Origin: Candidatus Poseidoniales archaeon
GTDB taxonomy: Archaea > Thermoplasmatota > Poseidoniia > Poseidoniales > Thalassarchaeaceae
Length of the DNA: 48,813 bases
NCBI GenBank assembly: GCA_003602515.1
Contig: QQSB01000005.1
Span: forward strand, 35,129-83,941
Direction: 5' to 3'
Numbering within the stretch: the stretch's first letter is position 1; each line of letters begins with the position of its first letter. Below are positions 389 to 48,813 of this stretch, one piece after another. The notes under the pieces were generated by a model that saw only the letters and a list, made by a program, of their open reading frames with translations, made no database searches and was not told the origin of the DNA. The position numbers and the translations under genes were made by a program.

Positions 389-1996
389 TTACTCCAACTC
401 ATAATCAATTTTCGACTCTCTGGGAGGGGGCCCATAGATCATTGGCGTTAGCGATAAAGATGCTATCATCATAGCTCCAATGATAGCTGCCGGAATAAGG
501 CCATTGTCCCATTGTATTGCGTACCTGACTATACAGTAAACTGTAGCCAGTGCTACGCTCAGAAGCATGATTGGGTATCCTGTTTTGAAGAACCGATTGA
601 ATGATATGTCATAACCTGATTCCTCGGCTAGTCCGGCAGCGACCACGTTAGCAGATGCTCCGATTATTGTGCCGTTCCCCCCCAAGCAAGCCCCTAATGC
701 CAATGCCCAAGCTAGAGGGGCAAGTTCCAATCCCAATTCTGGATCTTCTGCTAGTTTGATTACGACCGGTACCATGGTAGCAGTGTATGGTATGTTGTCA
801 ATAAATGCAGAGGCGATAGCGGATACCCATAGCAGTAGAAGTACCGACACCATGAGTCGGTTTTGCTCTGAGGCTCCCTTTATGGTATCCGAAATTCCGT
901 CGGCTATAGTATCAATCATTCCCATGTTCTCAAGGCCATGAATCATTATGAACAAGCCTGCAAAGAAGATTATTGTTGTCCACTCAACCGCATCTAGTTG
1001 TTCCTCTACGCGATGTGGCGAAGTAACCAAGAGCATGAGGACAGCACCACCTATCGCTATTGTAGCGACTGTGAGGAGAGGATGGTGGAATGCAGAGTGT
1101 GCAAAGAAAGATACGATAACTAATGCTAAAATCGCACCTGATTTCTTTAGTAATTGGACATCCTTGATTCCATATCTAAGCCTCAGCAAATCGACGTTTC
1201 GATGTTTCTCCCCGGATAGCCCAGTAGATTCCAATTTGGATAAAAGCCAGAAGGAAGGTGCCATTGCTATTACCACTGCAGGTCCGACATGGATGATGAA
1301 ATCTATGAACGTGATTCCCTGATTTGCGATGCCCGTATCAGATAGAGCCTGTGAAGATAGTTGAGCGCCGATGATAATATTTGGAGGATCCCCGATTTGT
1401 GTTGCTGCCCCTCCGATATTAGAAAACATCACTTCTGCGATAATTAGTGGGACTGGTTCCAAGTCCAGGACCTTGGCTATCTGAATAGTAACTGGGACTA
1501 TCAGTAAAATTGTCGTTACATTGTCAAGGAATGCGGAAAATACAGCTGTTATCGTACAGAGTATAACTGAAAGTCTCCAAACAGAACCTCCACTAAGAGC
1601 ATAAGCCTGTACGGCAGCCCACTCGAAAATCCCTGTTTTTCCGAGTATGTCAACTATTACCATCATACCAATCAATAGCCCGATTGTTTCCTCGTCTATC
1701 CATGTCACGACTGTTCCGAGGTCCGGTCCGTCGCCGATCAGGTGTAGAGTCACAACAGCCGCCACCCCACCTAGAGCAGCAGCAAGAGCCCTATGCACGA
1801 CTTCGAAAATAATTAGCGTGTATACTGCGATTAGAATGGCGAAAGATGCAGGAACTGCCCAACTCGGCATCTCTGGCGGCTCCCATAACCCAGAAGGAGA
1901 GGAAGCAGCCAGGACAGAAGGAATGAAGATGGTTAGCAACAGAAGGAAATATGCGACAAAGGTAACCCTGCCCCGCACTGTCTCAGCGATGTTCAT
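389..1996 (-). CDS. Na+/H+ antiporter NhaD / ArsB-type permease (ion transporter superfamily)
   Basis: Many TM segments, 'NIGGAATQIGDPPNIIIG' signature and repeated 'AFIDNIPYTATMVPV' half. Start chosen at MNIAETVRG (1996), preceded by GGAGGG on the minus strand; the ORF is open to 2068. Confidence 0.88.
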   Translation of the reverse strand: MNIAETVRGRVTFVAYFLLLLTIFIPSVLAASSPSGLWEPPEMPSWAVPASFAILIAVYTLIIFEVVHRALAAALGGVAAVVTLHLIGDGPDLGTVVTWIDEETIGLLIGMMVIVDILGKTGIFEWAAVQAYALSGGSVWRLSVILCTITAVFSAFLDNVTTILLIVPVTIQIAKVLDLEPVPLIIAEVMFSNIGGAATQIGDPPNIIIGAQLSSQALSDTGIANQGITFIDFIIHVGPAVVIAMAPSFWLLSKLESTGLSGEKHRNVDLLRLRYGIKDVQLLKKSGAILALVIVSFFAHSAFHHPLLTVATIAIGGAVLMLLVTSPHRVEEQLDAVEWTTIIFFAGLFIMIHGLENMGMIDTIADGISDTIKGASEQNRLMVSVLLLLWVSAIASAFIDNIPYTATMVPVVIKLAEDPELGLELAPLAWALALGACLGGNGTIIGASANVVAAGLAEESGYDISFNRFFKTGYPIMLLSVALATVYCIVRYAIQWDNGLIPAAIIGAMMIASLSLTPMIYGPPPRESKIDYELE

Positions 1997-2155
1997 TGTG
2001 CATCCCTCCGATAAGCTGAATATGAGACTGCTGGCTACGGGCCCTGCAAAATACTTCGATATCGTCACTTTGAAAACTCTCTGGAGAGTGAGACTTTTCG
2101 GCGATAAATAGGGAAATATGTTACTAAAGGAAGATATCAGAAAAAGTAGTATTCT

Positions 2156-2446
2156 CTACTTGACAGACCAGAACACAGCAACGTTCCCTCTCTGGAAAAC
2201 CAGATTCGATCTGGTCAATTCGGCTAATTCTCTAAACAAGGAGTTTCTCTGTTGCCTATCAGATGTTGTTCCTTTGTTTGCCTTAACCTTGACGAGGTTC
2301 TTTCTTGATAGTTGATCTGAGAGTTCAGAGATTACCGACTCAGTGACCCCTATCCTTCCGATCCTTACGGAAACTTCCAGATCCTGACTCTTGGCCATAT
2401 TTATGATCCTTCTAGGGATATTTTCATTCAATATCTTGACCTCCAA
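2156..2446 (-). CDS. YhbY/CRM-domain RNA-binding protein
   Basis: 96 aa; 'RRIINMAKSQDLEVSVRIGRIGVTESVISELSDQLSRKNLVKVK' matches the CRM fold pattern. Confidence 0.8.
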   Translation of the reverse strand: MEVKILNENIPRRIINMAKSQDLEVSVRIGRIGVTESVISELSDQLSRKNLVKVKANKGTTSDRQQRNSLFRELAELTRSNLVFQRGNVAVFWSVK

Positions 2447-2777
2447 AATCAGGACCCTGGCGCATTGTCCTACCGCATTCTAGGCATGTAATAATCAGAA
2501 TCTTCGAAGAAATTCTGACTCTTGAGTTTACCCCTGGTGAAAGAGATTTTTTACAACTTCGGCAAATCCTCCTTCTTATCTTCGAAGCCGGCCTAACGCC
2601 GTGCTTCTTTCCTATTGCGATAATTTGCCTCGCAGCACTATCTGCAATCTGAACATACTCTCCAAGGTTGCTCTCAAAAGATTGAGATAGATGTCTGATG
2701 GCTGATTCTGCATCGTTCATTCTTTCCGACCTGCGTCTCCTAGAACGTCTGCCTCTTCCAACCATTGTCCACCTCAT
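2424..2777 (-). CDS. rnp4: Ribonuclease P protein component 4 (Rpr2/Rpp21/Snm1 family)
   Basis: Basic protein with 'RIRRRICRSCKKSLSPGVNSRVRISSKILIITCLECGRTMRQ' zinc-ribbon core; adjacent to the CRM gene. An alternative start lies at 2765. Confidence 0.85.
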   Translation of the reverse strand: MRWTMVGRGRRSRRRRSERMNDAESAIRHLSQSFESNLGEYVQIADSAARQIIAIGKKHGVRPASKIRRRICRSCKKSLSPGVNSRVRISSKILIITCLECGRTMRQGPDFGGQDIE

Positions 2778-3397
2778 AGATTTCTTACAGCATTTGCGAC
2801 GGATTGGCTAACTTCCTGAATTGTTCCGGTTCCGTCTACAGTGGATAGGATCCCCATGTTGCCATACCAGTCCCCAAGAGGCTTTGTCTGATTATGATAG
2901 GCAGCTAGGCGCATTCTGACTGTTTCCTCATTGTCGTCCTTTCTCTGGACGAGTCTGTTCGATAGTTCTGGCGGGGGTGGTTTGAATGAAACATGGTAGA
3001 TCTCGCCCGTTTCGGGGTCCATCCTCCTTCCGACGATTCTGTTGACGATGTCTTCATCTGGGACCGCTATTGATATCACAGCAGAAACCTCGGTTATCTC
3101 CGAGAGTGCTTCCGCCTGGGGGATTGTTCTTGGGAAGCCATCGAAGAGCACACCATTTGATGCGTCCGATTCACTCAACCTATCCTTGATCAGTCCGATG
3201 ATAACCTGATCGGGGACAAGTTTCCCTGCTTCCATGTACTCCCTTGCTTCCAAGCCAAGTTCGGTACCTTGAGAAACGGCAGAACGTAGCATGTCGCCGG
3301 TGGAAATCTGAGGTTTTCCCGTCATCTCTACGATTATTTCTGCCTGGGTACCCTTGCCGGCACCGGGCGGTCCGAACAACACAATTGATCCCATCAT
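2774..3397 (-). CDS. adk: Adenylate kinase
   Basis: P-loop 'IVLFGPPGAGKGTQAE', 'ISTGDMLR', 'LFDGFPRTIPQAEAL', LID 'GRRMDPETGEIYH'. Confidence 0.95.
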   Translation of the reverse strand: MMGSIVLFGPPGAGKGTQAEIIVEMTGKPQISTGDMLRSAVSQGTELGLEAREYMEAGKLVPDQVIIGLIKDRLSESDASNGVLFDGFPRTIPQAEALSEITEVSAVISIAVPDEDIVNRIVGRRMDPETGEIYHVSFKPPPPELSNRLVQRKDDNEETVRMRLAAYHNQTKPLGDWYGNMGILSTVDGTGTIQEVSQSVANAVRNL

Positions 3398-32698: not shown

Positions 32699-35227
32699 CT
32701 ATCTACCCATTACTGCTCTGTGAACTGAATTCTGAACTTCTTTCATCCTTCCTACAGCCCCAAGGTCTCTGAACAGGGAAAGCGACCTCTGCAGATAATC
32801 CATCCTCTGGGAGCGATCAGACTCAACTTCACCTAGTCTTGCTAGTAATTCTCCTTGCAGCATACGGAAGTCGTTTGATTCTGCGACTGCTAAACCATTG
32901 AGATAATGCTCTGCAGCCTCCTCTCTACGACCTGCATCGATTAGGACCTGTCCGAGCAGCATCTCTACCTCCACAGTACTTTGGGGGTCGTTTTGATCGG
33001 AGAGAGTCTCGAGTGCTCCCGAGTAGTGGAATAGTGCAAGTTCGTTATCTGATATCTTTGCATAGTACCTCCCTAGGACGGCTCGTGATCGGGCATGGAG
33101 GAAATCTTGATTGGAATCTCTAGTATCCTCATAGGCAAAAATGGCGTGCTCCCTTGCCCTGTCCAACTCCCCCATTTCTATGAAGGCCGACGCTAGTCTA
33201 ATTCTGGCTTCATTCAAAACAGGGTCTTTCTCCTTCTCCAGGAGTTCCTCGACATTCCCATACACCTCTAGTGCTCTACGGGAATCTCTCCTTCGACGGA
33301 ATATATGCCCCATGTTGTTGTAGCTTCTTGCTGCTCCGACAGCGTCCCTGATGCCAATCTGGATCTCCAGTGCCTTCCTGTGAAGTTCGAGTGCATCGTC
33401 CATTGCCCCCCTCTTTACTGCTATATCTGCCCTAGCAGATAGAAGACGCGCGAGCTCGTGACTAGGGGCGCCCCCTCCAATATGTTTTGAAGCGGCATCG
33501 TATTCTTCTTCGGCCTGATCCCACCTCCCCTGGATAGTCAGAATGTCACCCTTTAGTTCCCTAATTAGGCCTCTACTTTTAGAGTCAAAATCACTGCTTT
33601 CGAGAGAGTTTAGGATTGATAGTAATTCTGTGTGACCAGTGCTAACCAAGCCATGTCCCTCTGAAATTAAGACCTCGGCGATACCATCTTCGTCACCTGT
33701 ATGGCTAAGGTGATAGATGAATTCAATTCGATCTGTAGCATCGTCCTTCTTCTCCCTATACCAATTGACAGCGGCCAAATGGAGGGAGTTCCTCATCTCC
33801 TCGTCCATCGATCTTAACAAGAATTCACGAACTAAGTCGTGGACATCAAAGTTATCAGCATCGGATTGGCGAGCCAGTCCCTTCTCGACTAAGTCGTCTA
33901 GCAGGTCTACGCTACCCTCTACTTGATGGATAGCTTGCACTGGGATGGGTTCACGGAATACTGCAATGGCCCCCAATAGGCGTTTCTCTGGACCTGAGAG
34001 TCGGCTAAATATCTCCTTTTCAACAAATGCCTCTAGTGTGGCATGGAATGTCTCGGCAACGTTCCCCCTGTTAATCAACTCTAGAATCAGTGGGTGCCCT
34101 CGAGATAGTGAATAAATGTGAGTAAACTGATCTGAGTCCATTTTTGGCATTGCCGTCAGGATCTGTCTACTAGAGTCAGCATCCAAACCCTGAAGTGGCA
34201 TTACCAGGGTAACGATATTGCCCGACTGGTCAGATTCTGGGACTACCATCCTGAATGATCGGGAGAACATCACCAGGCCAACTTCCTTCAGAGTATTAAT
34301 ACTCAATGTGAGTTCTCTAAGAATTGAGTAAAGTGTTTCATCGCCGACCTTGTGCAAATCGTCTATTACAATCAGAGATGGCGCCTCAGACAAACCAGTA
34401 GCGATCAGGTTTACGGCCATTTTTGTTTGTGGTACAGGAGATGAGGCAAGATAGTCAGAAAGATCGTTATTTCCCACTGCGGAGAGCCATTCTGCGCACG
34501 CCTCTAGGAATGCTCGAGAACCTTCCCAATCCTGACATCGATGATAGAGAAGATTCCTCCGATGAGTGAATCTATCGAGGATTTTGGTGGAAAGGGAGGT
34601 CTTTCCGATTCCAGCTATCCCCGGGACGAGGATAGAAGCTGACTTGGCTTCCAGTAGATTTGCCATCACATCTAGTTCCTTTTCACGACCGTAGAATCTT
34701 CTAGTTCGGGGGAGGTCGTTTAGGTACGATACTAACTGCTTCTCAATGTGTTTCGAAAGATCTCTTTCTACCAAATCTGGAGTCAGTCCCGATAGATCGA
34801 TAGTTCCTGAATCATCCATATATCGCAACATGTCGACATGCCTTAGAGGTAAATCCGTGGTCTCGATTGCTTCTGCCAGAGATGTGTTTTCAGAGCGACC
34901 ATCGGAGAAAACTACCCTTACCTTTGTCTCTGAAACCCTTGCCCAAATCTCGTCTGCAACCTTGGCCCCCTCATCAGTCAGAAAATAGGCCTTCCTTTTC
35001 CTAGATACTCCGGTTACGTGTGCCTGTCTCTCGATAAGATGCCCGGACTCCTTCATTCCGGAAATTGCTCGGGGAACATTGGAGCGAGCGATTGACACGG
35101 CATTGGCGATTCCCATTTGAGATAACGCAAATGGGACCTCGACCTTTTCACTGTGGTCTAAGTAATCACTAAGATGAAGGAAAATCCTCTCTTGGACTCC
35201 AGGTCGTGATGAAGCACTCGATGCCAT
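32699..35227 (-). CDS. wHTH-STAND ATPase-TPR signal-transduction/regulatory protein
   Basis: N-terminal winged-HTH-like region, Walker A 'VPGIAGIGKTSLSTKIL', Walker B 'SLIVIDDLHK', C-terminal TPR array. Start set at MASSASSRPG (35227). Confidence 0.8.
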   Translation of the reverse strand: MASSASSRPGVQERIFLHLSDYLDHSEKVEVPFALSQMGIANAVSIARSNVPRAISGMKESGHLIERQAHVTGVSRKRKAYFLTDEGAKVADEIWARVSETKVRVVFSDGRSENTSLAEAIETTDLPLRHVDMLRYMDDSGTIDLSGLTPDLVERDLSKHIEKQLVSYLNDLPRTRRFYGREKELDVMANLLEAKSASILVPGIAGIGKTSLSTKILDRFTHRRNLLYHRCQDWEGSRAFLEACAEWLSAVGNNDLSDYLASSPVPQTKMAVNLIATGLSEAPSLIVIDDLHKVGDETLYSILRELTLSINTLKEVGLVMFSRSFRMVVPESDQSGNIVTLVMPLQGLDADSSRQILTAMPKMDSDQFTHIYSLSRGHPLILELINRGNVAETFHATLEAFVEKEIFSRLSGPEKRLLGAIAVFREPIPVQAIHQVEGSVDLLDDLVEKGLARQSDADNFDVHDLVREFLLRSMDEEMRNSLHLAAVNWYREKKDDATDRIEFIYHLSHTGDEDGIAEVLISEGHGLVSTGHTELLSILNSLESSDFDSKSRGLIRELKGDILTIQGRWDQAEEEYDAASKHIGGGAPSHELARLLSARADIAVKRGAMDDALELHRKALEIQIGIRDAVGAARSYNNMGHIFRRRRDSRRALEVYGNVEELLEKEKDPVLNEARIRLASAFIEMGELDRAREHAIFAYEDTRDSNQDFLHARSRAVLGRYYAKISDNELALFHYSGALETLSDQNDPQSTVEVEMLLGQVLIDAGRREEAAEHYLNGLAVAESNDFRMLQGELLARLGEVESDRSQRMDYLQRSLSLFRDLGAVGRMKEVQNSVHRAVMGR

Positions 35228-35286: not shown

Positions 35287-38200
35287 TCATTGGAAATCGG
35301 GATCTGGGACCCATTCCTCAGAAGATGAATCCCATAGCCAACCCGGATGATCATCATACCTCTCTAGTTTGCTCTCACCTTCCCCTTCACCGTAGTCCAT
35401 GGGAATTTGTGCCGGGGTTTTGTACTCGCCATCTTCTTCATCGATCTCAATTCCTATGAAGCCGGTGAAGTAAGCAAGAGCAACTAGGGCTAGGATAGCG
35501 GCAATAGAAGCCCCTACAATCGAAGCCCAATTAGTTGAGGATGGGGTTGGCTCTCCCTTGCTAATTGCCCCTACCTCTGTGGTTTGTCCTGCGTAGGTGA
35601 ATTCCGGAATCGATGAGTCCCCCTTTATTCTAGAGGCGGGAATTCCCAACTCCCATGAGCCATCTTCAGAGACGATTGTGTTATTGACGGGGTTTCCGCC
35701 TATCAAAACGGATACTTGCTTTCCAGGAAGTCCGATACCGGAATATATTGCCATTTGTTCTTCTCCTACCCAAGACTGATCTGGCTCCTGAATCGTGAAT
35801 TGTAGAGGGACGATTCTGAAGGTGACCGGATCTGAGTTGACTCTTGAGTCCCATGCATCGGTAGCAATGAAAATCACATTGTTCAGAGTCCATGACTCCA
35901 TGTCATCGTCGAAAAACAACATGTCTGCAGGGTCGTAACGAGCAATTCCGTCTGTTCCGACGCCAACGACAAGAGGGTGTCTGTCGTCTGAGTCGATCGA
36001 TGTGTCATTGTAAACGGAGATGAATTGAATATCGCTATCTGCGTCTGAGAAATACTCCTTCAGGTCTATCTCTGCTGTGGTGCACTTGTCAACAGAGTTG
36101 GATTCTGAGTCACAATAAAGTGTGATTTCACTTTGCCAACCAGATGAGTCGAATTCGGGCTGATTATTACCTGCATTTGGTGGGTTGTCTGCAATGATCG
36201 TTACTTCGGACCAGCTACTGTAGTCAATACCGTCATAAGATCGGAATCGTAGAAGATATTCCGCGTCATGACGAAGTTGCGTGGTATCCCAATCCATCTC
36301 CCAGATACCATCTTCGGAAAATTCACTGGTACTCGTTTCGAAAACTGAGACGTAGTCATTTGAAACGTCCTTTACTTCCAGGTCTACCCTCGTAACCCCA
36401 CCGTCAAAGTCCCTAGCCACTCCCGATAGCTTGGTGTCCAAGGATGATGATATCCTTGTTCCTGAAACTGGCTGATTGACACTAATTGTAGGTTGACTAT
36501 TCCTATTGTCTATTGTGAGTGTTAGTATCACTGGCTGGCACTCGTCCACATCCCCATTGCAGAAGTCTGAATCTGAAGCCCAGATTGTGAACGTGTATGT
36601 CGTCAATTCCCTGGGCCTGGTGCTGAAGTCCCATACCCAATCCCAAGTTCCATCTACATTTGTTTCAACGGGACTGGTAACTTGGTAGTTTGGCCCAGAA
36701 ATCTGCATGTATACCAGGCCTATGTCACTATTGCAATTGTCTGGACAGCCATATGGGTCCTGTGAATAGCCATCGAAAACCACAGATCCCTCATCGTGGG
36801 ATGAGAATGAGCTCGGAGTAGTTACGAATATGCTAGGGGCTTGAGTATTGAGTTTGATTGATCGCGAAACAACGGGGCTGTAGTCTATACCATCAAATGC
36901 CCTGAATTCGAACGTATAATCGCCCTCGCCTGCAAGTCCTGTCATGTCGAAATTGTAGTACCAGGAACTGAAGGGCCTGTTGAATCGTGTGACCTCGCCC
37001 TCATCCGCACCGCTTGTATCAATTGCGTATTCGGCATCCTCCCAAGAGCCGGTGAATGGATTTCTAACCTGTATAGCATGAACGTAACCCCCCTGGTCCC
37101 ATTGGGCTCTTTCATCGGTTAGGTAACTGTTCGCCAACGTACCATCATGAGCGCTTCCAGTGATGTTGACAACTCTTCTGAATGAGTGCCCGTCATTCTC
37201 GGTAACTCTCACTGTTGGGGCTTCGTTCTCAAGATGTGCGGTCTCCTCCAGAGAGTTCTCCTCAAGAGTGAATTGACCCGAGTAATATCCATATCCAAAT
37301 CTGTACGCAGTATATCTGTAAAGTGACATTTCCCGAGTTCCTGCGGAATAATCACAACTGGAATCTGCAGTATCTATGTCGAGATCGCCATCGTTGTCTA
37401 TGCCGTCCGAACAAGAGTCCTCGTACTCATCATCCGCGAATCCATCTGGATTATCCCCTCCTCCTAGTCCCCTGAAGTCTAGGTGAAAGTTGGATGGTAG
37501 GGCTACCCAAGGAGTAAAGCCATCACCACCGGTGTTTACGCGATACAGATCGTTTCCTAGAGCATCCTCTACAATGACCAAAGCATCGCTTACCTTTTCA
37601 CCGCCGATTAGTGTCTGGAATCTAACTAGTTCGGCTCTGCTGACCTGTACTGCGAAGTGAGTTGGTTGTGTTGCAATCTTGACCTTTGACAAGTCCAAGT
37701 TCGTCAAGTCTGCAAATGTGAACACTGTTGAGTTGTTGTCCATACTGACGCCCAATGGGAAGTTCCTCGGCGTCATGTTCTGGCAATTGTTGCAGTCCTT
37801 CACCGGAGTTGGGATAATCGCCCCCTGGAATTCGTTGTCTGTCCATGCCTCCTGATCCGGCCACGATAGCCTGACGGGGAATTCTCCACTGGGTGGAGAT
37901 GGTATATACTCTGATTGGGCAGTGACCGAGCTCTTTGTCACGTTGTACACTGTCTCGACCTGGTTCCAGTCGTTTTCAGAGAAGTACGCTAGTGAACCGA
38001 ATTGCTGTGAACCTGCATAACCACTGTCGTAATTCTTGATCACAGCACCGGTCTTTTGCACGTCGAATGAGTTCCTTTGAATATCCAGAAGAGAGCCTAC
38101 GGCTCGAATCCCATCGGCCGTACCTCCTGCAGTGATGATGTTGTCATACATGGTCACCCCAGTGACATATGCATGCACTACGGGGCAAGAAAACTCCCCC

Positions 38201-39549
38201 CCCCAATTGGTTTCACTGCCACAGGTCCCAGTACCGTCATAGGAGATTGAGTTGTTTGCCAGGTATAGCCTAGATGCTGCTTGGATGGCGTATGAGTACA
38301 TCCCCGCAACCACTGGGGTCAAGGTGGTGTCGAAAATCGAGTTGTTCTCGGCAATGACGTCATAGGATCCACCCAGCCACAAACCAAAGTATCCCCCTAT
38401 TGGTCCGATTTCGTTTTCGTGGATATGGGCCTCGCTATTGTAGACGACTACACCAGAACCTTCCCCCGCGCCGCCGATATCGTTTTCTATCAATGACACC
38501 AGTGCACCGGCTGCTGCATAAACTCCCGCACCCTCAACCGTGGTTATTTCGTTGTCCGAGATTTGGAAGTCGAACGAGGTCCCTCCTACTGCCTTCTTTC
38601 CATTCAGATCGATACCATTGCAGTTCACATTTATCTGCGTGTTTGTCACGCTTCCTGCTGATGTGTAAAGTCCAATTCCAAAATCTCCTGACGAGATTTC
38701 GGCGTTATCTATCTCGATAAATGAGTCCTCGGCCCAGATTGTGGCCCGCCCGCCGTCCCTATTCCCGCACCCATTGTCGGTCCCGATGAGTGAAATATCG
38801 GAAAGCGCGAATGGGCTCACTGAGGATCCTGATGAATAAATCTGTAGTGCTGCTCCAACGATGCTCGTGCTCGCATCGGTCCCTACAACGAATTCACCGC
38901 CATTGAAGGTTGGTTGAGCAAGGTTGGTTGTCAGGACGCTGGAGGTGTTTATCTGGGTGAAAGAAAGTTCGGTAAGTGTGGGGCTAGCACCGTCTAGGAC
39001 AAGTGCGCCGTATCTGAATTCGCCTACTGCTGAGACATATTGGGGGATTCCCCATGCACTGTCGAACGTGACATATCTGAGACCGGTTTCAGAGAGATCT
39101 ATCGAACTTCTCATGAGTACTCCCTCGCTGCATGAAGGGTCATCTATCCAAATCTCTTGATTGCCAGAGCTCATCCCGTAGCATTCCCCGATTGCACTCG
39201 AATTTGTGGGTTCACTCCACCTGAGGGTAATTCGCATTGCGGGGCCTGCGTTTGAAGAAGCACCACAAGAAGACACTCCGGCGCACAGGCTTCCTCTTAC
39301 GTCTAGATGAGTGCCATTTGGGAACTCTATGGTTGCTCCGGGATTAATGATTAATTTGGCACCAGGAGCAATCGTCACATCTCCGGTCAGAGTGTGCACG
39401 CCGGCCCAAGTCTCAGTACCGGTAATTGTCCCCGTAGTAGTCTCATTTGAAGCGGATACAGTACCTGCGGGCAAGGCCAATGAAAGTAAAATGCTCAACA
39501 AGAATAGTCCTGTTAATGAGAATGACCGCAATTTTTCTTCCCGCGCCAT
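35287..39549 (-). CDS. Giant surface protein: beta-helix + metal-binding motif + Ig-like domains + TM + W-rich tail
   Basis: Signal peptide; 'LTGDVTIAPGAKLIINPGATIEF' and periodic beta-helix pattern; 'CSDGIDNDGDLDIDTADSSC'; TM 'WASIVGASIAAILALVALAYFTGFIGI'; tail 'HPGWLWDSSSEEWVPDPDFQ'. Confidence 0.85.
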   Translation of the reverse strand: MAREEKLRSFSLTGLFLLSILLSLALPAGTVSASNETTTGTITGTETWAGVHTLTGDVTIAPGAKLIINPGATIEFPNGTHLDVRGSLCAGVSSCGASSNAGPAMRITLRWSEPTNSSAIGECYGMSSGNQEIWIDDPSCSEGVLMRSSIDLSETGLRYVTFDSAWGIPQYVSAVGEFRYGALVLDGASPTLTELSFTQINTSSVLTTNLAQPTFNGGEFVVGTDASTSIVGAALQIYSSGSSVSPFALSDISLIGTDNGCGNRDGGRATIWAEDSFIEIDNAEISSGDFGIGLYTSAGSVTNTQINVNCNGIDLNGKKAVGGTSFDFQISDNEITTVEGAGVYAAAGALVSLIENDIGGAGEGSGVVVYNSEAHIHENEIGPIGGYFGLWLGGSYDVIAENNSIFDTTLTPVVAGMYSYAIQAASRLYLANNSISYDGTGTCGSETNWGGEFSCPVVHAYVTGVTMYDNIITAGGTADGIRAVGSLLDIQRNSFDVQKTGAVIKNYDSGYAGSQQFGSLAYFSENDWNQVETVYNVTKSSVTAQSEYIPSPPSGEFPVRLSWPDQEAWTDNEFQGAIIPTPVKDCNNCQNMTPRNFPLGVSMDNNSTVFTFADLTNLDLSKVKIATQPTHFAVQVSRAELVRFQTLIGGEKVSDALVIVEDALGNDLYRVNTGGDGFTPWVALPSNFHLDFRGLGGGDNPDGFADDEYEDSCSDGIDNDGDLDIDTADSSCDYSAGTREMSLYRYTAYRFGYGYYSGQFTLEENSLEETAHLENEAPTVRVTENDGHSFRRVVNITGSAHDGTLANSYLTDERAQWDQGGYVHAIQVRNPFTGSWEDAEYAIDTSGADEGEVTRFNRPFSSWYYNFDMTGLAGEGDYTFEFRAFDGIDYSPVVSRSIKLNTQAPSIFVTTPSSFSSHDEGSVVFDGYSQDPYGCPDNCNSDIGLVYMQISGPNYQVTSPVETNVDGTWDWVWDFSTRPRELTTYTFTIWASDSDFCNGDVDECQPVILTLTIDNRNSQPTISVNQPVSGTRISSSLDTKLSGVARDFDGGVTRVDLEVKDVSNDYVSVFETSTSEFSEDGIWEMDWDTTQLRHDAEYLLRFRSYDGIDYSSWSEVTIIADNPPNAGNNQPEFDSSGWQSEITLYCDSESNSVDKCTTAEIDLKEYFSDADSDIQFISVYNDTSIDSDDRHPLVVGVGTDGIARYDPADMLFFDDDMESWTLNNVIFIATDAWDSRVNSDPVTFRIVPLQFTIQEPDQSWVGEEQMAIYSGIGLPGKQVSVLIGGNPVNNTIVSEDGSWELGIPASRIKGDSSIPEFTYAGQTTEVGAISKGEPTPSSTNWASIVGASIAAILALVALAYFTGFIGIEIDEEDGEYKTPAQIPMDYGEGEGESKLERYDDHPGWLWDSSSEEWVPDPDFQ

Positions 39550-39624: not shown

Positions 39625-40860
39625 TTATTGGTTTATTCCAAATTCAATTTCTACTTGCCTAGACCATTGTTGAGCATCAAGGAGCCCATATCCTTTCTTC
39701 GGGTCGTGATTATTTATCTGGCTTGATTCGGTCCGTGCCGAGTTTGCAAGGGCGATCTTGACCAAGTCCATTTCATGCTGGTCAATTATTCCGTCCTCGC
39801 CCTCTATCTGACCTTGGTACAAGGAGAGGATCAATGCAAGAGCCCCAGTCACCAATACAGTTGAGTCGCTGGTACCAGTTGAGAATGCATATGGGGGATC
39901 CCTGCCACTGTCTCTGCAAGACCAGAGGTCTACTCCGGGAGCGCTGATCTCTGGTTTCTGATTTGGGAATATTCGTTGCTCGCCTGTTTCTGGATCGTAT
40001 TGTGCACCTTCCGCACTATCAACCCACGGATCGCCATTTCTATCATGCGCCCCGACTGCAATCACGCCAGACAGACTGGCGGGAGAGGAGACGTCGGAAA
40101 GGTTCTGTTGTGGATCGCGATTTCCTGCCGCTGCAATAACGAAAATACCGTCATCTAAAGCCTCTCTGACGGCATCAAGAGTATCAGATGTTGCTGAGAA
40201 ACTGGACCCCGGTGCAGTCCCCAGACTTAGTGAAATAATGTCGGCATCCTGAGAAATTCGGCACCATCTAATCGCTTGTGAAACCATCCGCTCGTTAGCA
40301 GACTTGCCATCTGGCCCTAGAGAAATCGCAATAGAAAGAGAGACTCCCGGTGCGGCTCCAGTGAATGATCCGTTTGCAGCAAGAAGGCCAGCCATCAAAG
40401 TGCCGTGGCTATTCGTTCCAATGTCTCTGACCGGAGAGTCTTTTTCGCTGTAGAAATCACGGAATCCGGATAAGGTTAGATGCGATAGGTCGGGATGGGA
40501 GACATCTATTCCGGTATCAACCATGCAAACTCTGACACCTTCACCAAGGTTTCCAGATTCCTGTAGCTCCCTAATGCCGCTATCCTCGAAGGCCCATTCC
40601 GAATCCAGAACCTCTCCAATAAGTGAGTAAATTGAGGGATATAGGAGTAAGATAGAGGCCACTACTGCCGAGAATCCGACGGCCCCCCAAGGCCACAGGA
40701 ATCTAATTATTGGGCCCGTCAAGAACCTAAGCCCTCTAGCATCTTCATCACTGATTCCGTAAGACTCTCCCGGATAACCAGGCGCATCGCTGTCTACGGC
40801 AGTGAGTAGATTTGGGTCATCGGGCTCAGGCATCAATTCGAGACGCGAGATTCCACGCAT
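39625..40860 (-). CDS. Membrane-anchored S8 subtilisin-like protease
   Basis: N-terminal TM 'WGAVGFSAVVASILLLYPSIYSLI'; triad segments 'VCMVDTGIDVSHPDL', 'NSHGTLMAGLLAA', 'FSTGTSDSTVLVTGALALI'. Start set at MRGISRLELM (40860). Confidence 0.88.
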   Translation of the reverse strand: MRGISRLELMPEPDDPNLLTAVDSDAPGYPGESYGISDEDARGLRFLTGPIIRFLWPWGAVGFSAVVASILLLYPSIYSLIGEVLDSEWAFEDSGIRELQESGNLGEGVRVCMVDTGIDVSHPDLSHLTLSGFRDFYSEKDSPVRDIGTNSHGTLMAGLLAANGSFTGAAPGVSLSIAISLGPDGKSANERMVSQAIRWCRISQDADIISLSLGTAPGSSFSATSDTLDAVREALDDGIFVIAAAGNRDPQQNLSDVSSPASLSGVIAVGAHDRNGDPWVDSAEGAQYDPETGEQRIFPNQKPEISAPGVDLWSCRDSGRDPPYAFSTGTSDSTVLVTGALALILSLYQGQIEGEDGIIDQHEMDLVKIALANSARTESSQINNHDPKKGYGLLDAQQWSRQVEIEFGINQ

Positions 40861-40888: not shown

Positions 40889-43800
40889 TTAGAACGGGGC
40901 GCTAACTCGTCTACCTGGCCTTCTGGTAAAGTACAGTAGAGCTGCAACCAGCATGATCAGGAATCCGTATGCCAGATACTTCAGACTATCATTCTCATCT
41001 GAACTGGTCCAAAGTTGAGCCTCAAAGACGCATGAAGGCTTCCCTTCTGACCTCGGTGACGTACAAGACCGTGACTGTTCGTCCAACAATTCACCCTCAA
41101 TTGAGAAGACGATCCAGTACTTCTTGGACTCAGTAAACTGGGTATAGTCCATGGTGACGTAGAATGTCGATTCGCTCATTGCTGAGACTGATCCGCTGGA
41201 TGTGGAGTTGACTCCTACTGGGTTTTCACAGTCAATGTCAGAGCATAGTGTTGCCACTAGATTGACGTTTTCTGCATCTACATTGCCGCCGTTCGAGATG
41301 TTGACTGAATAGCTCTCTATTTGACCAAAGGAAGCGAATGCATTTCCTCCGAGGATCCTAGCCGTTTCACCATTTATGGCGAGAACTGGGGAGTCCATCT
41401 TCATCACAGTTGAGCCCGAGTAAGTATTGTTGTCCTGATCCGAAACAGTGAATGTTACCTCTTCGGTGTAAGAGGAAGGCAGTTCTGGTTCATTTGGGCG
41501 TACTAGAGTGAAGGTGGCGATTCCGTCAGAGAATGGGGATACTGGCTGAGTGGTCGGACCGGCAAATTGCCACCATTCTGAGCTATCGAATTCAAAGTAG
41601 AACAACTCGTCTGAGTTCCCAGTGTTCTTGAATGGGATCTCGATAGTCACGGCAGTTTCCTCGCCGCTGAAGTAGAGATTCTCGGGCTCATTGAGTTCGA
41701 TCCCGTTGTATTCTGGCACATCAACCCTCAATTCTATCTGAGTCGAGTAGCCTTGTTCAGTCGATATCTTGACCAAAACCAAATGTCCATCTGGGAAGTG
41801 ATGTGCAACTCCGACATTAGCTGGGACTACACGGATGTTGATTTGTTCGATAAGGTCTGAATCAGACAAGCCCAAGTCGAATGTCGCGGAATCAACCCAC
41901 CCTCCAGATGAATTCTGGAAATGGACATTCCAATCCAGTCCATCTGCGCCTGGAACTGTTCCAACGACAGTGTATTCGTCGAACGAGTTGTGGCCGTCGT
42001 ATTCAACTGAGATAGAGAACTCAGCATTCTGGTATTTACATCCTACAGCTGTGCTTGTTGGCAGGCCTTGCCCCAGTGGGAAGTCATCGACATCGTCAAG
42101 CTCGCCATCATTGTCGTCATCTGAATCTTCATTGTCGCCAATTCCATCATTGTCATTGTCTGAGGTTTCAGTAGAGTCGTTTGGGAAGGCATCTTCGCCA
42201 TTAATGACGCCATCGCCATCATCGTCGTTTGTGCAAGTGGTATCGATCTCTTCGACTCCAGCTCTATCGTCCCCTTGCACTGATACAGTGATACTCTGCT
42301 TAGAGACCCTATCGATACTGAGGGTGTTGATCGGGCTAACCTGTCCGGCTCTGATAGAAATTCCCTTTCCGCCGGAGTAGGATACGTTTCGAACGCCCTC
42401 GTTTAATTCGAAGCTACTGGATGTTTGCACCGTGCCCGGCAGTAGCAATAGAGTCAGTATGCCATCGCTTCCTAGCTCCTCGGACCACGAGATCGGGCCG
42501 TATTCTATGACTAGGTCATAATCATCAATCTCTGTAAGATCATGCGCACTACCATCGAAGGCCAACCAACTGGTCTCAAGCCTTAGGGTTCCGCCAACTG
42601 TGAGTTCTGATTCTACCGAACCCCCATCTACCCCAACTTCAAGGGGCTCGATGGAGATCAGCCCTGTGCATTCAGAGGCCTCGGATGTAGATGTTGCCAT
42701 TGTCACCCAACTGCCTGGTTGAATCATTACAGTCCACTCTCCAAGGGAGTTTCCGGATACTGATACGCGATCTCTCGAAATTCCATGAGATGGGATCATC
42801 TCAACTTGCCACTCGCCGCTAGAAATACAAGACTGGTCCAGATATGAGATGCTACCGGAGATTTCAACCTCTCCTGCCGAGATCTCGATATCCTCGATCA
42901 CCGAGGTTTCTCCGATTTCTACTAGTGAGGTTTGAGTACCGAAGCCGTCCCTCTCTACTGTGATATTCCATGAGCTTTGTACAGGAAGGAATGTGGACCA
43001 GCCACCGTCATTATCTGTAACTAGATGGTGAATTGGCGATTCAGCGTCCCCGGTTATATTTACAGAGGCATTTGAAAGTCCCTCTGAGAAACCTGGGGAG
43101 CCATCATCATCTAGATCCCAGAATACCTTTCCGCTGAGACTGACAAGTTTCTCTGCGGTCAGGAATACTTGGTGATTGGGCCCTACGGTCACACCTGATT
43201 CAACGAGAGAAGTGTTCTCCAATAGTGTCCTGACACCGTCTTGATTGGTCTGGTTAATCTCAACATTCCATGACCCGGGTACAAGCCTAATTTCAAGAGG
43301 CTGATCAAAACCTCCGATGGAACTAACGAATGATCCAAGGCCTTCCTCCGAGGAAATCTTGAGTTCGATCAACTCCGGTGATGCAACATCGGAAGTTGAT
43401 TGTAGGGTTACGGTCACAGAGGCAAGTTCGGCCGTCTGGAAATTCAATCTGGAACCAGCTGTTGATTGGGAAGTAGAAATCGATCTTCGCAATCCCTCGT
43501 ACACCCCTGGATTTGTCTCGAACTCATCCACAATTACTATCCAATCTCCCTCTTCGATATACTCGACCAATATTCCATCATCGTTGGTTGTGAAGGTTTG
43601 AATCCATCCATTTTCGATGCTCTCGAATTTAACTTCGTGGTTTTCGAGTAATTGCCCACTTTCATTCCTGAGAGTTATGTTAACCAACCATCTTGGCTCG
43701 AATCCTACAGAGCGCTTTACCGTAGAGGTAGAACCTATCTCAACTTCAAATATCTCGTTTGTGTCATACAGGGTATCGAATGGCTCGTCTGCAGAAGAGT

Positions 43801-46800
43801 TGGCCCTCTCGACTACTATTCGATACCTTCCAGGTTCAAGCGATATTTCCGCCAATCCTGTTTGGACCCATTCGGATCCTTCCATTGATACGGTGTAACC
43901 ATCACCATTTGGGGACAGGGGCTTTATCTCGAATGGGTATGAAACTGGGGTACCGTTGGACGCATTGTTATCGCCTGCATGATCGATGAAGAAGTCTATC
44001 TCTACCGTAATATTAGTTGGGAGGACCAGGAGCTCGACCATGGGTTCTGACGATGTGTTGACTTCCTTGACAACAGAATTGGCTGACATCTCATTGCCTG
44101 CTTCCAGTGTGAAAGACCAGTTACCGAGAGGGAGCAGCATGTCGAATCTTCCAAGATCATCCACTTCTTCTCTCCAAACGGCATCAGTTGTCCCATCCAA
44201 GTTGTTTGCTTTGGCAAAAACTGGGGCCCATCCTGAGAATCCCTGATTGTACGTGTTTCCTTCACGGTTGAGGCTTACTTCGCCCAGAACAATTGTTGAG
44301 TCTGTGAGCTCGATTGTGATATTCTCCATCGAATCAGTCACTTGGAAACTGGTACCGTTAGAGAAGAATCCCCCTGCCCCAACCATCCTTTCAACAGTGG
44401 CATGAACAAATGCCCCTTGGGGGAGAATGACGCTGAATTCCCCGAATGAATCTGTAATTGATTCAAGAGTGAAGCCATCCCATTGGAACAATATCTCCTG
44501 GTTTGTCACTCTGGATAATGGATCAGAGATATCGTCCCCCTTGACCGGTTTGTCGATAACAATACCAGTTACAACCTGGCTTACCAAGAACTCGAAAGAC
44601 TCAGTTAAATCAGCATCCCCTATGGCGACGCGCTGCCACAGTTGCTTCTGATCGCTGAGAGTGTAATTGAGTATCCAATTACCCGGATTCAATTCTGCAT
44701 GGTAAGACTTTGATGCGTTGTCGAAGACTGCTGTGACAGAGCTTCTGGAGATGTCCTCTGGGATGAATTGCAATTGCAGGTCATCAACACTAGTTCCGTC
44801 ATCGGAAAGGGTGAATGTAATGTCTGATGTCTGGGGCACTTCGGAAGGGAAGGAAACTAGAGTTACAAATCCGGATTCAAATGTGAATGCCTGAGAAATC
44901 TCTGGGAAGCCATCGTCATCAATATCTACCTCTGCAAGGTATGAGCCGGGCACTATTGGTCCGACCTCGAAAGATCCGCTTTCATCAGGAGTCACGAAGC
45001 ATGGCTGAGTGATGACTCCCTGGCACTCTTCATCGGAATCATCACTGGAGCCATTGATTGAGAAAATCGAAACCTCGCTAGACAATGGCCTGCCTGTGAA
45101 AATCGAGACAGTGCCCTTGACCGCCCCTCCGGTGATTGTTACCGGAGTCTGAATCTCTGAAGAAGTCAGAGGTACCACAAATGGTTCTGCGAGCTCCACA
45201 TGATCTCCTGTTCCGAAATCAACTGATACGATGTACTCCCCAGGTAGGGCGTCTACAATGTGGAATGATCCTGGTCTGACCATGGGCCCACTAAACGAAC
45301 CGTGTCCGGAGAATATACCAGTCCCATTGATTGTTCCAAATGTGGATAGTTCGTCTGAGGCAGATGTGGCGAAGTTTCCTGAACCGATGAATGTGGCTTG
45401 GGAAAGTTCCCTGGTAAATTCACTGACTCCCTCAGATGTGAACTTTCCAGAGCCGTTTGCTATACCATCCAAGAAATAGTGCCCTTCTTCGTTAACGCAG
45501 GCATCATAATCTTCGGGGACCGAATCTCCGGTGCAATCGGGGAAATCGCCAGATAGTGTGCCATCGATGATTCCCTTTCCAGAGAATTGCCCCTCTCCAG
45601 TAATGCTGTGGTTATCGAATACAGCTTGTGTGTGAGTACCTGTGAAGTCTTGAACGGACACTGCTCCCATGCTCTCCATTGTCCCCTCGCCTAGGAATGT
45701 AACCTCACCCGTTCCGCTGAACCTCAAATCCTCTCCAGTCATACTCCCATCAGAAGTCATGGCCACATAGGGTTGGATCTCTACCTCATCTGAAGATGGA
45801 GTTAGGATCACATTGGCAGAGAGAACAGGTTCTCCGTCGAAGTCAAGTTCTCCCGACCAAGAAAGTATTCCCGAAGCAGTTGACGGAGAAACCGATATTG
45901 GTGCCTGGATAACTGATTCGCCATTGCTGTGGCCATCTGAACCGGAAATGTTCACTATTGTTTCAGAAAGCCATGTTGATCCGTAGACGTTAGCCAGAAT
46001 TCCAGTTACTGGATTTACATCACGATTCTGAGATGTCTCCAAGAATAGCTCTGACATCAGGTTGGCGGATCCCGATAGCAGAGATTCTCTGGCCGCATCC
46101 AAGTCTGGTTCCCCGCTAAAAGCCGAGACTCTTATCTTTCCAGCAGGGGCTGAGAAAGAGAAGTGGCCATGCTCATCTGCTTGGGTCGTCCCTATGGGTA
46201 TCCAGTATGTCCGGGAGTCATTGTCTACAACATTTCCATCCTCGTCTGCAGACTCATCTCCGCTGAAAGCATCCCTCTCAATCAGAATCCTCGCATTAGG
46301 AACTGGTCCCACCCCTTCCAATGTGACGGTGCCCTGAAGTGATGCCCCGCTGTAGTATTTCAGGATCTTAACATTCCTATTGGAATCATAGATTGACCCA
46401 CAGTACCTGTCCACCTTTCCGGTTAGTACGAACTCGGAATCGTTTGCAGAAGATGAAGCGGGAGAATTGATCGATAGGGTCTCATCCTCGGGGTCATAAT
46501 TGCTAGTTAATGCGTTAATTGGAATTACTCCCTCTTCAACTTGAGTCATCTTCCAAGGCCCTCCTGATTGGATCTGGGACCACCCTGATGAGAGGCTGTC
46601 TGCCGAATTAAGTGAGACATCGGACAATTGAGAGTCGCCCGCCACTGTTGATGCAGAACCGGTAATCTGGATTTCTTCGCAGGAAGTCCCATTTGTAGGG
46701 TCATACCAGTTTGATAGTACAAAGTGGTTCATCATTGCTCCAGGGAGCGCCATTGCCCCCTGCAAATAGCTCCCGGGCGTCCCTGTGAGAGAGTTTGGCA

Positions 46801-48813
46801 GAATCCAGGTAGAGGGGGTGTCGGCATCTCCCACCTGTCCACTTATCGATGGAAGGCCTAACGTGGAGGTTCCATAACCGACATATGTCCTTGCGATCAT
46901 CGTATCGAAGAAACTGTCCAGATGCTGATATTCCATGTCCGTCATCTGTATCATGTCCTCTCCCGTGGCTGCTCCGGAGGCCTGGGCCTTCAAATCGTCC
47001 ATGTACCTACTTTGGAACTCATCAGCGGACATAGGACCTTGGTTTGTTTCGTAAGTTGTTGTTATGTAGGAATTGATGTCAAGTCCGGAAAGATGAGTTG
47101 GAGCATGGAAGATTCCAGTAGTTTGGCCCCTGTGATAAGCCTGGTAATCCTGGTAGTACTTACCTCCGAGGGGATATAGTCGGTTATCTACCGCAAAGTA
47201 TCGAATCTCGTGATTCCTAGAAGTTGTACTTCCATGCGACTCTTCGTAATCTGATACCTCGTACGAGTCGATGGAAGAGATTCCATCGTATATCTGTACG
47301 AGATCATCGAGCGCGAAGGCCGTGATTAGGAATGCACGGGCCAAACCGAATCTGGCATTGGTTCTGTGGAGTGCTGTCGAGAGATCATCGTAATCATCAA
47401 TGATGTCTCTGGTATATCGGTAACCTGCCATATCGTAGTGGCTGGCGTCATCAAATTCTACCAATTCGAACGCAGATGACGATCCACGAGCTTGATCGAA
47501 GAGAGACATTGCTTCGGATGAATTGGTAGTCATTTCTCCGTATTGTTCACCGTTTACCAACACAACATATGTGTCCAAACAAGACTCAACGCATGTCAGG
47601 CCGTTGCTATCCAGGGGATTGCCCATGAGCAATTCTGCATCGCCATATTCAGCAATAACGGCCATCAAACGATCTTCTACAAACTCCTTGTTGTTATTGG
47701 AAGTAATGGCCTCGAATTCCTGAACCTGCTCTTCTGACATAGTCTCCTGTAGGACCGTTAGGAATGATTCACCGAGTTGGCCGTTTATGCTCTTGTCGCC
47801 CATCGCCAAGGTGGTGATGAACAAAGAAAGTGTGTCTTCCTGCCCTCCCGATAGTAGCATTGCCCCACTGTTAGGGATTCCAGATTGGAAGTTGTCCGCA
47901 ACAGTGGGATGCTGGCCAGAGGCTAGGGCCTGGAATCCATAATCCCACCAGGAAACGAAGGCAGGACGATCGCTGAAGGGTGTCTCGCTATCCTGATGTG
48001 ACAGCCAATCATATGCCTCATTCCAACCCTGGGAGTTGAAACTTGGACCGAAGGTACCCATGTACCATAGTCCAGAGTCGCTTTGGTCGTAGGCATCACT
48101 ATTCATGACCGAAAACAATCCTAACAGGTCCTGCCTCAGTATGTCCGGGACAATATCGTATAGGCTCTGATCGACTTCACTTGCTGATTGGTCGCCCCTT
48201 GGGATTCCAGCGTCGATTCCATATGTAGCGTGCTGAGATGATATGAGGAGCAAAACCATGATCATGGCTGGGACTCCCGGACGAGCCTTGGAAGCGGGCC
48301 AGAGGGACTTGAAGCGGGTCCTTGGTGTCCCAATTCCTGAGTTCCGCCATACCTTGGTGAAAGATGGCAGACTTGCAGCACTCCATAGCATGGAAATTCC
48401 AATCCCCCCTACTACTGCCATTACTGGGGTTGCGTTGATGATGAAACGCCCGGCCGACCATGCCATGTATGTCGCGATAATGGTCCAAAGGCCCAGGAGA
48501 GTCAGTTCTGACTTGTTCTTCCTGCTTCCCCTCCACAATAGCAGGAATGCGCATCCTATAGCGATTAAAGCCACAATGGGCCCATAGGAAGCGAAGAGGA
48601 CCCCGCGCTCGGGGGCTTGTGCCTCACCGATAGTGCCGAATATCTTGTTCTTGGAGAAGTAGAAACCACCAGTAAATAGGATGTCCCACCCATTGAATAA
48701 ATCCCTGGCCTGGAGTATGAATAGCAATGCGAGGATAGAGCCGAATAATGTGCTTCCTCCTAGCACTACCAAAAGCCACGGCTTGTCCCTGAATGAGCTA
48801 GACACCCACCCCA
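40889..48813 (-). CDS. aglB: AglB/Stt3-type oligosaccharyltransferase fused to a giant multidomain ectodomain (5' partial at window edge)
   Basis: TM segments with 'MAWSAGRFIINATPVMAVVGG'; 'FVSWWDYGFQALASGQHPTVADNFQSG' (WWDYG at 47936-47950); then carboxypeptidase-regulatory/Ig-like repeats, TSP3 motif 'NDDDGDGVINGEDAFPNDSTETSDNDNDGIGDNEDSDDDNDGELDD', C-terminal TM 'YLAYGFLIMLVAALLYFTRRPGRR'. Confidence 0.88.
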   Translation of the reverse strand, partial: GWVSSSFRDKPWLLVVLGGSTLFGSILALLFILQARDLFNGWDILFTGGFYFSKNKIFGTIGEAQAPERGVLFASYGPIVALIAIGCAFLLLWRGSRKNKSELTLLGLWTIIATYMAWSAGRFIINATPVMAVVGGIGISMLWSAASLPSFTKVWRNSGIGTPRTRFKSLWPASKARPGVPAMIMVLLLISSQHATYGIDAGIPRGDQSASEVDQSLYDIVPDILRQDLLGLFSVMNSDAYDQSDSGLWYMGTFGPSFNSQGWNEAYDWLSHQDSETPFSDRPAFVSWWDYGFQALASGQHPTVADNFQSGIPNSGAMLLSGGQEDTLSLFITTLAMGDKSINGQLGESFLTVLQETMSEEQVQEFEAITSNNNKEFVEDRLMAVIAEYGDAELLMGNPLDSNGLTCVESCLDTYVVLVNGEQYGEMTTNSSEAMSLFDQARGSSSAFELVEFDDASHYDMAGYRYTRDIIDDYDDLSTALHRTNARFGLARAFLITAFALDDLVQIYDGISSIDSYEVSDYEESHGSTTSRNHEIRYFAVDNRLYPLGGKYYQDYQAYHRGQTTGIFHAPTHLSGLDINSYITTTYETNQGPMSADEFQSRYMDDLKAQASGAATGEDMIQMTDMEYQHLDSFFDTMIARTYVGYGTSTLGLPSISGQVGDADTPSTWILPNSLTGTPGSYLQGAMALPGAMMNHFVLSNWYDPTNGTSCEEIQITGSASTVAGDSQLSDVSLNSADSLSSGWSQIQSGGPWKMTQVEEGVIPINALTSNYDPEDETLSINSPASSSANDSEFVLTGKVDRYCGSIYDSNRNVKILKYYSGASLQGTVTLEGVGPVPNARILIERDAFSGDESADEDGNVVDNDSRTYWIPIGTTQADEHGHFSFSAPAGKIRVSAFSGEPDLDAARESLLSGSANLMSELFLETSQNRDVNPVTGILANVYGSTWLSETIVNISGSDGHSNGESVIQAPISVSPSTASGILSWSGELDFDGEPVLSANVILTPSSDEVEIQPYVAMTSDGSMTGEDLRFSGTGEVTFLGEGTMESMGAVSVQDFTGTHTQAVFDNHSITGEGQFSGKGIIDGTLSGDFPDCTGDSVPEDYDACVNEEGHYFLDGIANGSGKFTSEGVSEFTRELSQATFIGSGNFATSASDELSTFGTINGTGIFSGHGSFSGPMVRPGSFHIVDALPGEYIVSVDFGTGDHVELAEPFVVPLTSSEIQTPVTITGGAVKGTVSIFTGRPLSSEVSIFSINGSSDDSDEECQGVITQPCFVTPDESGSFEVGPIVPGSYLAEVDIDDDGFPEISQAFTFESGFVTLVSFPSEVPQTSDITFTLSDDGTSVDDLQLQFIPEDISRSSVTAVFDNASKSYHAELNPGNWILNYTLSDQKQLWQRVAIGDADLTESFEFLVSQVVTGIVIDKPVKGDDISDPLSRVTNQEILFQWDGFTLESITDSFGEFSVILPQGAFVHATVERMVGAGGFFSNGTSFQVTDSMENITIELTDSTIVLGEVSLNREGNTYNQGFSGWAPVFAKANNLDGTTDAVWREEVDDLGRFDMLLPLGNWSFTLEAGNEMSANSVVKEVNTSSEPMVELLVLPTNITVEIDFFIDHAGDNNASNGTPVSYPFEIKPLSPNGDGYTVSMEGSEWVQTGLAEISLEPGRYRIVVERANSSADEPFDTLYDTNEIFEVEIGSTSTVKRSVGFEPRWLVNITLRNESGQLLENHEVKFESIENGWIQTFTTNDDGILVEYIEEGDWIVIVDEFETNPGVYEGLRRSISTSQSTAGSRLNFQTAELASVTVTLQSTSDVASPELIELKISSEEGLGSFVSSIGGFDQPLEIRLVPGSWNVEINQTNQDGVRTLLENTSLVESGVTVGPNHQVFLTAEKLVSLSGKVFWDLDDDGSPGFSEGLSNASVNITGDAESPIHHLVTDNDGGWSTFLPVQSSWNITVERDGFGTQTSLVEIGETSVIEDIEISAGEVEISGSISYLDQSCISSGEWQVEMIPSHGISRDRVSVSGNSLGEWTVMIQPGSWVTMATSTSEASECTGLISIEPLEVGVDGGSVESELTVGGTLRLETSWLAFDGSAHDLTEIDDYDLVIEYGPISWSEELGSDGILTLLLLPGTVQTSSSFELNEGVRNVSYSGGKGISIRAGQVSPINTLSIDRVSKQSITVSVQGDDRAGVEEIDTTCTNDDDGDGVINGEDAFPNDSTETSDNDNDGIGDNEDSDDDNDGELDDVDDFPLGQGLPTSTAVGCKYQNAEFSISVEYDGHNSFDEYTVVGTVPGADGLDWNVHFQNSSGGWVDSATFDLGLSDSDLIEQINIRVVPANVGVAHHFPDGHLVLVKISTEQGYSTQIELRVDVPEYNGIELNEPENLYFSGEETAVTIEIPFKNTGNSDELFYFEFDSSEWWQFAGPTTQPVSPFSDGIATFTLVRPNEPELPSSYTEEVTFTVSDQDNNTYSGSTVMKMDSPVLAINGETARILGGNAFASFGQIESYSVNISNGGNVDAENVNLVATLCSDIDCENPVGVNSTSSGSVSAMSESTFYVTMDYTQFTESKKYWIVFSIEGELLDEQSRSCTSPRSEGKPSCVFEAQLWTSSDENDSLKYLAYGFLIMLVAALLYFTRRPGRRVSAPF

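Follow-up and report, generated by a model that had tools for sequence, protein, structure and literature searches.

A giant, double-anchored oligosaccharyltransferase as a conserved AglB variant of the archaeal order Poseidoniales

The archaeal oligosaccharyltransferases (OSTs) known so far are single-subunit enzymes of roughly 600–1000 residues. The window analyzed here, a stretch of 48,813 nucleotides from a Candidatus Poseidoniales archaeon, bears on its minus strand an open frame that an earlier, sequence-only reading had taken for an OST fused to an ectodomain of about 2000 residues with a second membrane anchor, raising the question of whether such a protein exists as one polypeptide and what role its outer part might have. 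The frame indeed occupies positions 40889..48811 (-) without interruption and leaves the window at its upstream edge. On the whole contig it reaches upstream to about window coordinate 50770 and totals 3309 codons, codon 17 (MEKEKEAPQ) being the probable start. The window holds residues 670–3309 and the stop codon, or about 80% of the protein; the rest, including some 9–10 more N-terminal helices, lies upstream, beyond the reach of that reading. An open frame of 2600 residues with family-level matches to STT3 (E = 2e-12), to CarboxypepD_reg (2.9e-10) and, as the best match in NCBIfam, to TIGR04154 (1.7e-44) is far outside chance, and the giant OST passes the cut-off of PF02516 with 47.8 bits against 24.5.

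The source assembly, in which the window spans contig positions 35129–83941, is 1.36 Mb in size and 76% complete, and directly outside the window edge it contains a run of 22 unread codons (residues 648–669), across which the source genome is joined by the reading frame only. In the same-genus locus L138, which is likewise 3309 residues long, this position is read without a gap. Among the 59 Poseidoniales loci whose frame is closed at both ends in the genome collection, 56 show a single unbroken frame of 3124–3319 residues; these include single-cell genomes (L128, L146, L158 and L161, as inferred from their AG- isolate names) and L191, for which the isolate name (PACB) points to long reads. 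The other three are L143, L145, in which an unread codon adjoins the end of the frame, and L164, with several frame changes along its length that resemble those of error-prone assemblies. In the single-contig genome G037 the locus is split into frames of 1603 and 1624 residues by one frame change near residue 1541; both can be aligned end to end to one intact relative, and the split is a lone frameshift or sequencing error and no independent gene pair. Neither a mis-assembly nor relatives with the OST and the ectodomain as two independent genes were found when both were looked for, and the fusion inferred by the sequence-only reading therefore stands. That two genes were joined by mis-assembly or frameshift, as the unread run beside the window and the split in G037 might suggest, has a virtually negligible probability given the unbroken frames of equal length in dozens of independent assemblies and the end-to-end alignment of the G037 frames, and mis-assembly is rejected for the family.

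The giant protein is also the only OST detected in its genome, where PF02516 matches at one place. The same holds for 55 of 60 relatives, and across the class a match was recovered in 185 of 193 genomes, those without one being draft assemblies for which no true absence is claimed. Each of these matches is at one place, except in G082, which has two OST copies of equal length on different contigs. A stand-alone aglB, sought by profile searches in the source genome, its relatives and the class, was not found. The protein had been perceived as a single oddity; its unusual build is real, but it represents the standard OST of Poseidoniales, and long anchored forms recur in the phylum. The OST frames of the sister order measure about 2340–2375 residues, and those of the phylum range from about 900 to 2750 residues where no contig end cuts them. 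In 20 inspected phylum regions, the 13 complete OSTs that reach 2000 residues or more all have a C-terminal helix, and none of the six of at most 1430 residues does (the frame of L113, cut by a contig end, lies outside these counts). In a phylogenetic tree the Poseidoniales OSTs form one clade with support of 100/100, within which two families are separated in a manner that fits vertical descent. Since the tree does not resolve the deep branching of the phylum, no single origin is claimed for all long forms. A Poseidoniales-like OST locus was also encountered in an assembly titled Deltaproteobacteria (L205), which is likely to reflect contamination or a mislabel.

The N-terminal region (residues 1–370) is predicted by hydropathy to contain about 9–10 extra helices ahead of the first STT3 external loop, placing the first external-loop Asp at residue 405 as against residues 80–100 or so in the sister order and in the majority of the other relatives, which lack these helices. 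They match no family in a Pfam search and are weakly conserved, with 15–22% identity between the two Poseidoniales families. A separate multi-helix extension before the STT3 part, apparently independent of the Poseidoniales one, is seen in L113 and L114 (residues 1–260). The STT3 membrane part itself (residues ~368–880) is complete, and its last helices, recognized by hydropathy and by the TIGR04154 match to residues 368–990, fall within the window (residues 670–879; 48182..48811 (-)). It is followed by the soluble catalytic domain (residues 880–1484; 46367..48181 (-)), for which the AlphaFold2 model is mixed in quality (mean pLDDT 73).

The acidic motifs of this enzyme core are GSDPWYMK in external loop 1, SDHDS in external loop 2, and TIGE, a TIxE motif, in external loop 5 (residues 729–732; 48623..48634 (-)). 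In an alignment of 18 diverse OSTs of the phylum the Asp of loop 1, the Asp of loop 2 and the Thr and Glu of loop 5 show no variation. The AGRF motif (residues 789–792; 48443..48454 (-)), with invariant Arg and Phe in the same alignment, and the WWDYG catalytic motif of the soluble domain (residues 957–961; 47936..47950 (-)) were re-found where first noticed; together with the loop 1 Asp, DHD and TIxE, these [AGV]RF and WWDYG signatures are largely invariant over the 18 proteins. At the expected place of the DK motif, which in AglB is canonically D-x-x-K (PMC3703281), the giant OST has the deviating conserved sequence D-x-R-L-x-P (residues 1211–1216; 47171..47188 (-)), a candidate variant whose Asp, Leu and Pro are invariant in 31 Poseidoniales, with Leu instead of Lys or Met at position +3. 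The giant OST is probably an active enzyme. Its closest solved relatives are eukaryotic STT3 and the AglB-L of Archaeoglobus fulgidus (PDB: 3WAJ/5GMY; 868 residues; PMC3703281). It shares with the latter the STT3 membrane part, the loop 1 Asp, the loop 2 and loop 5 motifs and the WWDYG-containing soluble domain, to which it adds the N-terminal helices, about 1800 residues of β-sandwiches and a second membrane anchor. The TIGR04154 profile (archaeo_STT3, the archaeosortase A-associated OST, 831 positions) aligns in a relative through position 796, thereby covering the first β-sandwich, whereas it has nothing corresponding to the remainder of the ectodomain; the giant OST scores 152 bits and four relatives 225–250 bits, well below the cut-off of 450 bits that defines this subfamily.

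The ectodomain proper comprises about 12 β-sandwiches over some 1800 residues (1485–3278), so that the earlier estimate of 2000 residues, while correct as to its existence, has to be adjusted to this figure, or to about 2400 if the soluble catalytic domain is included. It begins directly after the sequence KILKYYSGA with a prealbumin/CarboxypepD_reg-like domain (residues 1485–1600; 46019..46366 (-)), at the position covered by TIGR04154 in the relative, and both this junction and the domain are conserved phylum-wide. A conserved Gly-rich segment (residues 1692–1843; 45290..45745 (-)) looks like an insertion within the second prealbumin-like domain, and AlphaFold2 predicts for it very long β-strands with a confidence near 90. 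This segment, of G-x-G-x-F type, is conserved above most of the ectodomain and its predicted strands reach up to 42 residues. A tandem β-sandwich array follows (residues 1890–2860; 42239..45151 (-)), identified by AlphaFold2, Pfam and Foldseek, with the model of residues 1975–2860 being all-β at a mean pLDDT of 85.5. It is succeeded by an Asp-rich, thrombospondin-3-like linker (residues 2861–2916; 42071..42238 (-)), in which no residue is conserved at 95% in the order, and by CARDB/NEW3/DUF11-like Ig domains (residues 2930–3276; 40991..42031 (-)). Across residues 1890–3280 only 3–6% of the positions are conserved at the 95% level versus 29% in the STT3 part. PF13620 was detected in all ectodomains scanned, 20 from Poseidoniales and 13 from the phylum, which assigns them to the CarboxypepD_reg/prealbumin-like class. 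A search for paralogues of the ectodomain in its own genome gave matches to other proteins from the low-complexity Asp linker only, and one ectodomain matched nothing in a plasmid search.

The second membrane anchor proposed from the sequence is borne out by a C-terminal transmembrane helix (residues 3279–3297; 40928..40984 (-)), predicted from hydropathy and conserved in the long relatives, and the Asp repeat and the tail RRPGRRVSAPF were likewise re-found. This tail (40892..40927 (-)) contains K/R and no acidic residues. Its last residue is Phe in all 57 full-length Poseidoniales OSTs, 51 of which end in PF (40892–40897 (-)). The C-terminal Phe, invariant in Poseidoniales and not so in other families, is a possible inner-face binding motif. 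Because the soluble domains of AglB are extracellular (PMC5131992) and the tail is basic, the arm is predicted to lie outside the cell.

In 60 ectodomains we counted 2278 N-x-S/T sequons versus 1124 of the reversed pattern [ST]-x-N, a 2.03-fold excess, whereas 64 PurD proteins from the same loci have 90 of each and hence no enrichment; these counts come from related sequences and are not independent. Shuffling of individual ectodomains gave an expectation of 17.8 against the 31 sequons observed here, and of 16–19 against 49 in several relatives. The doubling is the pattern to be expected from selection for glycosylated sites, though it is no proof of their occupancy. The AglB of Haloferax volcanii is itself N-glycosylated (PMC8241124). 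The suggestion that the OST is glycosylated in cis receives indirect backing: the excess of sequons in the ectodomain, as opposed to PurD, points to glycosylation of the arm, and does not distinguish cis from trans.

On the basis of these observations we favor, with moderate confidence, the interpretation that this is a probably active single-subunit AglB/STT3 enzyme whose double-anchored β-sandwich array forms an N-glycan-decorated rod or loop with docking and spacing roles. In a Candidatus Thalassarchaeaceae archaeon (Marine Group IIb, order Poseidoniales), the giant protein would serve as the OST of N-glycosylation, its soluble domain being extended outside the cell by about a dozen prealbumin/Ig-like β-sandwiches that the C-terminal helix and basic inner tail would tie back to the membrane. 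With both ends in the membrane, the array would lie across the outer face as a rod or loop close to the active site. There it may space the enzyme within the surface layer, offer docking surfaces to emerging proteins or partner proteins, and bear N-glycans that the enzyme itself attaches in cis or in trans. The role as a surface scaffold or substrate-recruiting arm that had been proposed fits this anatomy and is, like the activity of the enzyme and the glycosylation of the arm, putative. The rapid divergence of the array speaks for a spacer or surface role no less than for specific docking, and the docking step is therefore proposed only weakly. As the phylum also has OSTs of 1280–1430 residues without the long arm, the latter is dispensable for transfer as such. 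The non-canonical DK motif and the mixed quality of the model of the soluble catalytic domain likewise weigh against the interpretation.

The gene neighborhood bears on two alternatives to this interpretation. PurD is encoded upstream of the OST in all 56 testable Poseidoniales loci. The next gene downstream codes for an N-terminally membrane-anchored subtilase (Peptidase_S8; 39625..40860 (-), start MRGISRLE set from relatives), and of 59 testable loci, 53 have the subtilase pattern immediately downstream of the OST. The third gene of this conserved row encodes a 1420-residue β-helix surface protein with a C-terminal helix and tail (35287..39549 (-)), and several of its orthologues share the C-terminal motif (P)GWLWD...W(V/I)PDP. 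In several other families of the phylum (L108, L110, L118, L119 and L120) the OST likewise has a purD-like gene within a distance of a few genes, perhaps an old neighborhood, and in the same loci a small protein with hydrophobic segments directly follows the OST.

This recurrent proximity of a protease raises the possibility that the product is a polyprotein, cut probably by the adjacent subtilase into an ordinary AglB and a separate, C-terminally anchored surface protein. A gene of subtilase size and place was present in the regions first inspected, and the C-terminal helix would hold the released arm at the membrane. Against this, judged by gene size and layout, nothing like a subtilase gene adjoins the long OSTs, double-anchored as well, of the sister order and the other families inspected, and the junction leading into the first domain is a conserved feature of the whole phylum. 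Proteolytic release by the neighboring subtilase is hence possible in Poseidoniales and seemingly not general, and as an account of the protein we regard it as unlikely.

Equally unlikely, in our estimate, is that the ectodomain is mainly a surface coat or adhesion rod, a stand-in for an S-layer, to which the OST merely lends an anchor. In the Foldseek search the ectodomain model came closest to Cna-B pilins and adhesins (TIE, BcpA, PitA), parts of bacterial covalent pili or adhesins which, unlike the giant OST, have no comparable enzyme domain. Consistent with a coat function are also the heavy sequon load of the ectodomain, the surface protein encoded in the adjoining gene row, and the report of an OST gene among the transcripts raised when the genus O1 is active (PMC9723583). 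Nevertheless, an enzyme of more than 20 helices would be a costly anchor, and the phylum already possesses stand-alone β-sandwich arrays with simple anchors. These CarboxypepD_reg arrays of Thermoplasmatota (L246–L258) are of the same domain class as the OST ectodomains and mostly have a C-terminal helix, but they lack an OST part and are richer in PEGA/PKD and poorer in NOMO_5th. Some Thermoplasmatota genomes are rich in arrays of this type, with as many as 65 domain matches each, and the arrays have a NOMO-like build.

A further alternative concerns NOMO, a subunit of the BOS complex of the eukaryotic ER multipass translocon (PMC12262048, PMC11186639), which is likewise a rod, built from about 12 prealbumin/Ig-like domains and ending in one helix with a short tail on the inner side, and differs in being a separate protein without an OST part. 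NOMO is the best solved-sequence match of the OST ectodomain profiles: that of Poseidoniales matches a single PDB sequence, NOMO2 (E = 3.3e-5), and the phylum-wide profile recovers NOMO2 with E = 4.1e-33, the next non-NOMO match being at 1.7e-6. Moreover, all five NOMO_5th matches in 118 genomes sit in OST-sized, OST-placed frames, as assigned by contig and frame length and with three of them from one family, and 12 of the 13 long OST ectodomains contain NOMO_5th, while in the control set it does not rank among the 25 most frequent families. However, NOMO2 is also the top match (1.4e-28) of a control profile built from 13 unrelated CarboxypepD_reg arrays of this phylum, indicating that most of the signal reflects the domain class; homology is consequently not claimed, and a relationship initially suggested by the ectodomain profile is demoted. 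In a six-frame genome search the best NOMO_5th match reaches 22.9 bits and none passes the Pfam cut-off of 27; one and the same profile segment matches several places in NOMO, and NOMO is not among the top 50 hits of the fold search with Foldseek. Single-sequence PDB searches with one ectodomain and one giant control protein returned no matches and are uninformative on specificity. The bias of NOMO_5th towards OST arrays may be taken as a lead, and does not amount to family membership. It is very unlikely that the Thermoplasmatota combine an OST catalytic subunit and a NOMO-like rod, which eukaryotes keep as distinct components assembled at the secretion channel, in one polypeptide whose double-anchored arm organizes co-translational glycosylation, and that the ectodomain fused to the OST truly corresponds to NOMO seems more improbable still.

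We conclude that the giant double-anchored OST is a real and conserved AglB variant not met before in the literature searched; a search of open-access literature yielded no paper describing it, though this does not prove that there is none. The commonness of the domain class that makes up its ectodomain tempers the surprise of such a protein across an order. Still, a whole order of abundant ocean archaea has as its only form of OST a double-anchored protein of more than 3100 residues, and long OSTs with the same junction and C-terminal anchor recur in many families across the phylum, of which cultured members outside Poseidoniales should allow these proposals to be tested. Should the arm serve to dock substrates or partners, fusion would have given archaea what eukaryotes achieved with extra OST and translocon subunits.
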